Source: Branchiostoma lanceolatum (taxonomy: Eukaryota; Chordata; Leptocardii; Amphioxiformes; Branchiostomatidae). Taken from it: a DNA stretch of 64,000 nt. How positions within the stretch are numbered: the first letter of the stretch is position 1; every line of letters begins with the position of its first letter. Positions 29,773 to 41,355 of the stretch are shown one piece after another. The position numbers and the translations under genes were made by a program. The notes under the pieces are model-generated. The model made no database searches, was not told the DNA's origin, and worked only from the letters and a program-made list of their open reading frames with translations. The stretch is from the NCBI RefSeq assembly GCF_035083965.1, contig NC_089739.1, forward strand, positions 7,242,001 through 7,306,000, given 5' to 3'.

Positions 29773-32700
29773 ATGAACCCAGGCGGAGGTCCCACCTATC
29801 CGTGCGCGTCGCTGTACGTCGGAGACCTGGATCCCGACATCACAGAGGCCATGTTGTACGAGAAGTTCTCCCCCGCTGGACCTGTGCTGTCCATTCGTGT
29901 CTGCCGCGACATGGTGACACGCCGCTCGCTCGGATACGCCTACGTCAACTTCCAACAGCCAGCCGATGGTAATTGTTGTTTCCCCCTCATTTTGTTTGTT
30001 TGAACCTTCAATTTTTCATGAGAAGCTCAAATCGATGAGTTTGGATGGAAAGCTGTCAGAAAGAACCTTAATCCATGAAATATCACAAACAACTATTTAA
30101 AGATTTGTGAATTGTTCCATATTGTCAACTTTCTGTAGCCAGCAATGTTCCATATTGTCAACTTTCTGTAGCCAGCAAATGTGCTTCTTGCTCTCATCTC
30201 CTATTGAATAGAAAATGGCAGAAAGAACCTTGATAAATATTAATTTCACATCAAAGAAGGTAATGTAAAGAGTTGTGAATGGTGCCATATCAGTACACAA
30301 TGTGATGTATAACTCATCATGACCTTTCACCTTCCCCAGCTGAACGTGCCCTGGACACCATGAACTTTGACACCATCAAGGGCAAGCCCATGCGCATCAT
30401 GTGGTCCCAGCGCGACCCGTCGCTGCGTAAGTCCGGCGTCGGAAATGTCTTCATTAAGAACCTGGACAAGTCGATCGACAACAAGGCCATTTACGACACC
30501 TTCTCAGCTTTTGGCAACATCCTGTCTTGTAAGGTAAGAGCGATGTCTTCTCCACAACTCTACAGTTGTGTTCAAACTCACTCTCAGTTGATGATGAAAG
30601 ATCTAAGTTCAAAAGATAGTGGATGCTATCTTGAGCATCTACATGTACTTGAATGTCTACTTGAATGTCATATGGGTTTGATGATGATTCGATGACGAGT
30701 CTGACAACCGACCGGCGGAAGTTCCTTCTGATCGCGTCTTTCGTGACGACACGTACGAGGCATTTGTCTGAAAACCACAGTCCTAAAAGATCATAGCATT
30801 CGTTAAAAGACATCAAAGTCAGTGTAAGTTGTTGGAACCCTGTTGTAAAAACATTGGCAAAACAATGTAGCAATTGTGCTTGTTCATGTTGATGTTATTG
30901 GTTATGTCTTGTCCCATTCAGGTTGCCCAAGACGAAACTGGATCCAGCAAAGGTTTCGGTTTTGTGCACTTTGAGACCCAAGAGGCAGCCGATGAGGCCA
31001 TGGCAAAGGTCAACGGCATGATGCTCAACGGCAAGAAAGTGTAAGTGCTGAGTTCATTTGGTTAAAATGCAAATAGTAGTGGATAACCTCAAGTCGACCG
31101 TACACACTCACGCCCCATTTTCAGAAAGAAAGCTGCAACCTCATAGTTTCCGTTCGAAGATGAATTTCGGTTTGCTGAGGAATGAGTCCGCTCTACAGTC
31201 TACTTTATACTTCATTAAGTCAAAGTGCAAACACACGGGTTTGGTGATGATTCGATGACGAGTCTGACAACCGACCGGCGGAAGTTCCTTCTGACCGCGT
31301 CTTTCGTGACGACACGTACGAGGCATTTGTCTGAAAACCTAAAAGATCATAGCATTCAAGATAAGACATAGAAGACAGTTTCTTTTTATACACTCCATAG
31401 AAGTCATGTCAATAGATTCAAAGTGAAAAACAGGCAAACAGAGATGGCAGACTTCACCCCTTTGCATCGGTGAAAAACGAACATGAAAACAATGCTTAAC
31501 TCCCATGGGTGTCAAGTTAAAATACTACTTTTCATAAGGTCGCAGATAGACCACGCAGACTTGATTTCACTAAAAGATTTGAGCAAGAAGAAGTGTTGAT
31601 GAACATGATGTTTATTGTGCTGTTTTTCTCTGCAGGTATGTAGGACGTTTTGTGCCTCGCAGTGAGCGTCTAGCTGCCATGGGAGAAGCCCAGAAACGTT
31701 TCACCAACATCTACGTCAAGAACTTCGGAGACAAGTGGGACGATGACAAGTAAGGGTTTCATGTGTTGGGCCACTGGTAGTGGTGTGTGTGTTTAACTTC
31801 ATTCTCTTTCCCAGTGCTACGCAGAGAAGCAGTATGTACCATTTTGAAGTCTTTGATATGATCGAACCCCAACATTCCGAATGCAAGGTCAAGCGCAGGG
31901 CTTTTTCTAAAAAGGGGAACAAGGGTGTTGTATCAACTTGCCCTGACCATGCCCTGACAAGCAGTAAATTTTGATTAATGCTTCGGTCCCATTTCCAATC
32001 CAGGGCAGGCTGGCAGCTTGTGGGAACGAAAAATATGATGTAAAAGCCCACAAACACAAAAATAGCCCGGGCGGGCACTGGATTGGAAATGAGACCTAAG
32101 CATAACAAGGGATGCTACTAGGTCACATGTGGCCACAGTCTTCAACTGTGACCCGACAGTAATTTTCCCCATTAGGAAGCCTTAGAATGGCCTTTTTAAC
32201 TTTTCTTAACAATTCCTTAAAACTCCACACCGTAGAACACATCATCCCCTCCTCTGCTCCCTCCCAATGCTCCCACTTGCACATTTTTCACAGATTCCTA
32301 GAAAACCCCATACTAGGCCATTGCACCAGTCTACAAAGTTGATGTTTGTGTTTCTTTGCAGGCTGCGTGATATGTTTGAGAAGTACGGGAAAGTGGTGAG
32401 TGCCAAGGTGATGACAGACGACATGGGACACAGCCGTGGCTTCGGCTTCGTCAGCTACGAAGAGCCAGACTCCGCCGGAAAGGTACGTCAAGTCTTGTTT
32501 GTTTATTGGTATGCGCAAATGAAATAAGGAACAGAGGCAAATGAATATAAAAAATAAAACAATAGTGCAGGAGGAGGGAGGAAAGAATGAAATGTGGCAA
32601 AAAGTTTGCATGCATTGTATTCGAAAACAGAGATGTTGATAATGTTAAACAGTGAAACGGAGAAACCCTGCTGCCAAAAATGTTAATAAGCCATTCGTTA

Positions 32701-41355: not shown

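Follow-up and report, generated by a model that had tools for sequence, protein, structure and literature searches.

What kind of RNA is repeated five times in the introns of a single lancelet gene, what it would guide and how it multiplied were the questions raised by this locus. The whole stretch of DNA analysed here (the window) was 64 kb long. An earlier note, made from the letters of this DNA, had described the repeats as members of one snoRNA family of the box C/D pattern that had spread among the introns of a translation-linked host gene, had found no match for the candidate guide before box D and had allowed for an unusual target.

Host gene and intronic copies

The 15 exons of the host gene were picked by eye and gave one splice model (Table 1), in which all 14 introns were GT-AG and no internal stop interrupted the 652 aa. 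The protein contained four RRM stretches and an MLLE domain. Its best matches among solved structures were poly(A)-binding proteins, with 6r5k_D first and polyadenylate-binding protein 1 entries following. Judged from the predicted protein, the host is a PABPC1-type poly(A)-binding-protein gene, a term that takes PABPC1 and its paralogues together.

Table 1. Coordinates of the host gene and of the five U15/SNORD15-like copies in the window
Feature	Position	Strand	Location or structure	Basis or remark
Host, PABPC1-type gene	29773..41355	+	15 coding exons, 652 aa	splice model by eye, domains, PDB matches
U15/SNORD15-like copy 1	30674..30776	+	PABPC1 intron 2	SNORD15 32.4 bits
U15/SNORD15-like copy 2	31237..31339	+	PABPC1 intron 3	SNORD15 34.0 bits; equals consensus exactly
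U15/SNORD15-like copy 3	36156..36258	+	PABPC1 intron 10	SNORD15 33.7 bits
U15/SNORD15-like copy 4	39094..39196	+	PABPC1 intron 12	SNORD15 24.6 bits; 2 changes in D' guide
U15/SNORD15-like copy 5	40212..40314	+	PABPC1 intron 13	SNORD15 28.6 bits; box D = CTTA

As the earlier note had described, the copies were each exactly 103 nt long, lay on the coding strand of the host and never occurred twice in one intron. This one-per-intron layout was rejected as evidence in its own right, because it was reached by 31% of random intronic placements (P 0.31). The five copies aligned without gaps, with 92 of 103 columns invariant and 2 to 7 differences between any two copies. Our recount of the boxes gave the same result as before: box C (TGATGAT), box D' (CTGA) and box C' (TGACGA) were each invariant in all five copies, while box D was CTGA in four and CTTA in copy 5, a change that possibly reflects decay of this copy. 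The terminal stem GGTTT/AAACC (columns 2-6 with 99-103) closed every copy without variation. Compared with the box C/D pattern of a C box (RUGAUGA) and a D box (CUGA) near a terminal stem, box C and the stem were thus found in 5/5 copies and box D in 4/5. One of the 11 variable columns fell in box D and two fell in the D' guide; the D guide did not vary at all.

The internal hairpin had been thought to collect substitutions that keep it paired. The pairing itself held up, with 60 of 60 pair cells remaining paired across the copies, but it carried no significant covariation signal, since 294 of 500 shuffles equalled it. Because the five sequences were near-identical, the paired hairpin was no evidence of covariation. 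The folding energy of the copies was also unremarkable (z from 0.17 to -1.43). The 18-nt guide occurred five times against 0.02 expected by chance.

A blastn search of the consensus against the window returned the five copies, the remaining matches being 10-12 nt long. The whole window was also scanned for snoRNAs having a box C, a box D, a terminal stem and a D guide with at least 10 nt complementary to rRNA. Only copies 1-4 were recovered, copy 5 being missed because of its box D, and the same scan of the opposite strand gave no candidate. An Rfam search of the window at E up to 0.05 found SNORD15 at four places (copy 4 was not among them), 5S, two microRNA families and no other snoRNA.

Several other features were observed in the window. 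Intron 8 contained a 5S rRNA match on the minus strand, antisense to the host (34259-34379, 60.9 bits against a gathering score of 38), which could be a 5S gene copy, a pseudogene or a 5S-derived repeat. The beginning of exon 9, whose real start is at 34760, was repeated twice in degenerate form within the same intron (34503-34690). Each repeat followed an AG; by eye they encoded YVALAQ-like text and looked like duplicated, broken exon starts. A strong inverted repeat in intron 11 (36953-37036) had a weak score as microRNA precursor (MIR400 at 31.3 bits, below the cut-off of 83) and was possibly a small transposon-type palindrome. On the minus strand at 47560-53076, open reading frames of 1187 and 624 aa resembled by eye LINE-type reverse-transcriptase and zinc-knuckle proteins.

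Family likeness to U15 and the predicted 28S targets

The covariance search for which the earlier note had called gave a name to the family. Ranked by E-value, SNORD15/U15 came first among the Rfam snoRNAs at each of the five copies (RF00067; E 2e-4 to 0.05 in a search of 10.3 kb), and its matches ran over the full length of the model in every copy (Table 1). At the gathering threshold no snoRNA was reported: the scores of 24.6-34.0 bits stood against a cut-off of 75, which is a curation threshold and not a biological trait. These scores speak against the U15 reading, as do the length of the copies (103 nt versus 146 in the Rfam model and 145 in mouse Snord15b) and their unalike middle. In the alignments printed for copies 1-3, with SNORD15 and with plasmodium_snoR21, GATGACGAGTCTGA and GAGGCATTTGTCTGA were intact; the first block held one guide followed by box D', and the second held the other guide followed by box D. 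The sequence linking these blocks was shorter than in the SNORD15 model and unalike, and the alignment gaps fell there. The low Rfam score was therefore attributed to a shortened middle with intact guides.

The family plasmodium_snoR21 (RF01864) matched weakly at the same five places (29.3-36.7 bits, E 0.08-2.3, cut-off 90). It scored more bits than SNORD15 at copies 1, 4 and 5 and had weaker E-values throughout. In the alignments shown its two guide blocks and their order agreed with those of the copies, and it differed in that all five copies fell below its cut-off. The block GAGGCATTTGTCTGA was also present in 61 stretches of viral_contigs, eight of which contained GATGACGAG as well, never within 1.6 kb of GAGGCATTTGTCTGA; in one of the 61 (L004) the U15 layout was absent. 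From this spacing and layout, the viral matches were taken as chance and not as U15 relatives.

The copies resembled SNORD15/U15 in box C, in the D' guide GATGACGAGT followed by CTGA, in the D guide GAGGCATTTGT followed by CTGA, in the predicted site 28S A3764 and in their location within introns of a translation-related gene. They differed in the host, which was PABPC1-type here, and in their number of five. The human SNORD15A and SNORD15B genes are hosted by RPS3. In mouse, Snord15a and Snord15b are located in Rps3, and the knock-out of the intronic Snord15b lowers 28S methylation at A3441 (PMC12667501). RPS3, which is not a defining host elsewhere, was not the host at this locus, where the copies lay in a PABPC1-type gene. 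A published reverse primer for SNORD15A is the complement of GAGGCATTTGTCTGAGAAGG (PMC6124571), and the D guide and box D in this sequence were identical to those of the five copies, the CTTA of copy 5 aside. In Fugu, U15 copies are reported from some RPS3 introns (Crosio et al. 1996, cited in PMC2936893). The Fugu case was similar to ours in that a single translation gene carries several intronic copies, and it differed in host gene and lineage. A search by title and start of abstract, in which subscription journals were thinly covered, found no report of U15 in lancelets or in PABPC1.

Complementarity of the guides, also proposed earlier as a check, was assessed on the 28S of other eukaryotes, namely the eukaryotic LSU in contigs L001 and L002 together with the 28S oligo of PMC12180492. 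As a separate observation, L001-L003 were three contigs with eukaryotic rRNA that were filed under bacterial genome bins, a probable contamination. The previously unmatched D guide paired over 12 nt with 28S CAAAUGCCUCGU, and the contiguous 12-nt pairing with CAAATGCCTCGT was found for all five copies in the LSU of both L001 and L002. When the L002 LSU was simulated 500 times with a Markov model, the longest D-guide run was 10 and none reached 12; this test used an 18-letter D guide ending in TTTG, one base short of box D. The D' guide paired over 9 nt with CTCGTCATC in four copies, and the two D' guide changes of copy 4 cut its pairing to 7 bp. By itself the D' pairing was weak, since 20 of 500 simulations gave at least 9, and its target CUCGUCAUC overlapped the target of the D guide in 28S. 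In the single SSU examined, each guide paired over 6 nt at most. An unusual or non-rRNA target was rejected, as each guide matched a site already established in 28S.

Site numbers were assigned by placing the human modified residues (PMC6182160) on the 28S oligo of PMC12180492. All 12 human modified residues inside the oligo fit only 1 of 148 registers. The 10 residues that were left after removal of A3764 and G3771 likewise fit exactly 1 of 148, and this second test was independent of the prediction because these two residues were left out. At box+5 in that register, the fifth guide nucleotide ahead of each box, the D guide addressed human 28S A3764 and the D' guide, which lies on the adjacent target CUCGUCAUC, addressed G3771 in 5/5 copies, with two positions changed in the D' guide of copy 4. 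Six of the 84 bases in this 28S stretch are 2'-O-methylated in the human table, and methylation amounts to 96% for Am3764 and 100% for Gm3771 (PMC6182160). SNORD15A/B has been named as the guide of A3764, and U15 as that of the Arabidopsis counterpart A2271, whereas in the algal nucleomorph counterpart it is the D' guide that serves the A3764 site (PMC6461891). The literature searches turned up no text naming a guide credited with G3771. We take yeast snR13 and snR75 to serve the A3764 and G3771 sites. The 28S stretch in which the U15 D-guide target sits is also used as R2 retrotransposon target DNA (PMC12180492).

With these boxes, guides and SNORD15 matches, the best-supported reading was the one first suggested, in which box C/D snoRNAs of one family occupy introns of a translation-linked gene. 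Specifically, we consider it highly probable (about 0.94), judging from the sequence, that all five copies encode U15 (SNORD15), a box C/D snoRNA located in introns, which would guide methylation of the A3764 and G3771 equivalents. The distance from the copies to the 3' splice site (145-695 nt) argues against this reading, as vertebrate C/D snoRNAs usually lie about 70-80 nt from it.

Duplication, possible decay and alternative origins

Copies 1 and 2 had about 40 nt of 3' flank in common at 82.5% identity, which points to local duplication. The other flank pairs had no similarity at E 0.05 (250 nt on each side, plus strand), and one extra row in this comparison was the same DNA stretch counted as flank of both copies. 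Since duplication took place, some copies might make working RNA while the rest are recent duplicates of U15 origin drifting in the introns. The loss of box D in copy 5 and the two D' guide changes in copy 4 are in line with such partial decay. On the other hand, box C, D', C', the stem and the D guide were invariant in all five copies while 11 other columns varied, and the hairpin changes preserved pairing. We regard the presence of pseudogenes among the copies as possible but rather unlikely; its odds overlap with those of the preferred reading, as it is compatible with U15 genes for the remaining copies.

A transposable element or SINE-like repeat with chance C/D-like boxes would explain five dispersed, near-identical copies, and snoRNA retroposons exist, but this origin is highly improbable given that no copy lay outside the PABPC1-type gene in the 64-kb window, that all copies were sense with equal ends at the terminal stem, that the flanks were unalike at E 0.05 except for copies 1 and 2, and that both guides addressed known 28S sites.

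Proposed function and evolution of the U15 copies

Starting from the U15 reading, we infer expression, processing, assembly, methylation and dosage of the copies as follows. After splicing, each RNA would be released by trimming of its PABPC1 intron, and the GGTTT/AAACC stem would bring boxes C and D together. Box C/D particles consist of 15.5K/SNU13, NOP56, NOP58 and fibrillarin. With the guide ahead of box D, such a particle would direct methylation to the 28S adenosine that corresponds to human A3764; with the guide ahead of D', it would direct methylation to the guanosine seven positions further along, which corresponds to human G3771. Five nucleotides (CTCGT) are common to both 28S targets, so the D and D' pairings would have to take turns. 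Five copies in one, presumably strongly transcribed, gene would raise the dosage of U15.

This RNA may do more than guide methylation, since in mouse the methyl lost at A3441 had no effect on organoid formation, and a second role of Snord15b, in splicing through Ilf2, has been reported (PMC12667501). By analogy, the copies in the PABPC1 introns may have a role other than methylation.

A more speculative scenario, to which we give little weight, is that in this lineage U15 moved from RPS3, or was never there, and was amplified to five PABPC1 copies independently of fish RPS3. Each RNA would then be a double guide for the A3764 and G3771 equivalents with overlapping, mutually exclusive pairings, and copies 4 and 5, with a weakened D' guide and a weakened box D respectively, would be starting to specialise for one site each.

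The U15 family, its 28S guides and, in the Fugu RPS3 gene, the presence of multiple U15 copies in one translation gene are already known from the literature cited, while the PABPC1-type host and the five-copy number may be new. The guide that had been left unmatched gains a target (28S) and a name (U15), and PABPC1 is added as a probable U15 host. Moreover, a snoRNA scoring under the Rfam cut-off can be recognised from its two guides when both are intact. If one snoRNA has changed hosts and been amplified repeatedly in translation genes, U15 would be a useful evolutionary case, for which no new mechanism is needed.
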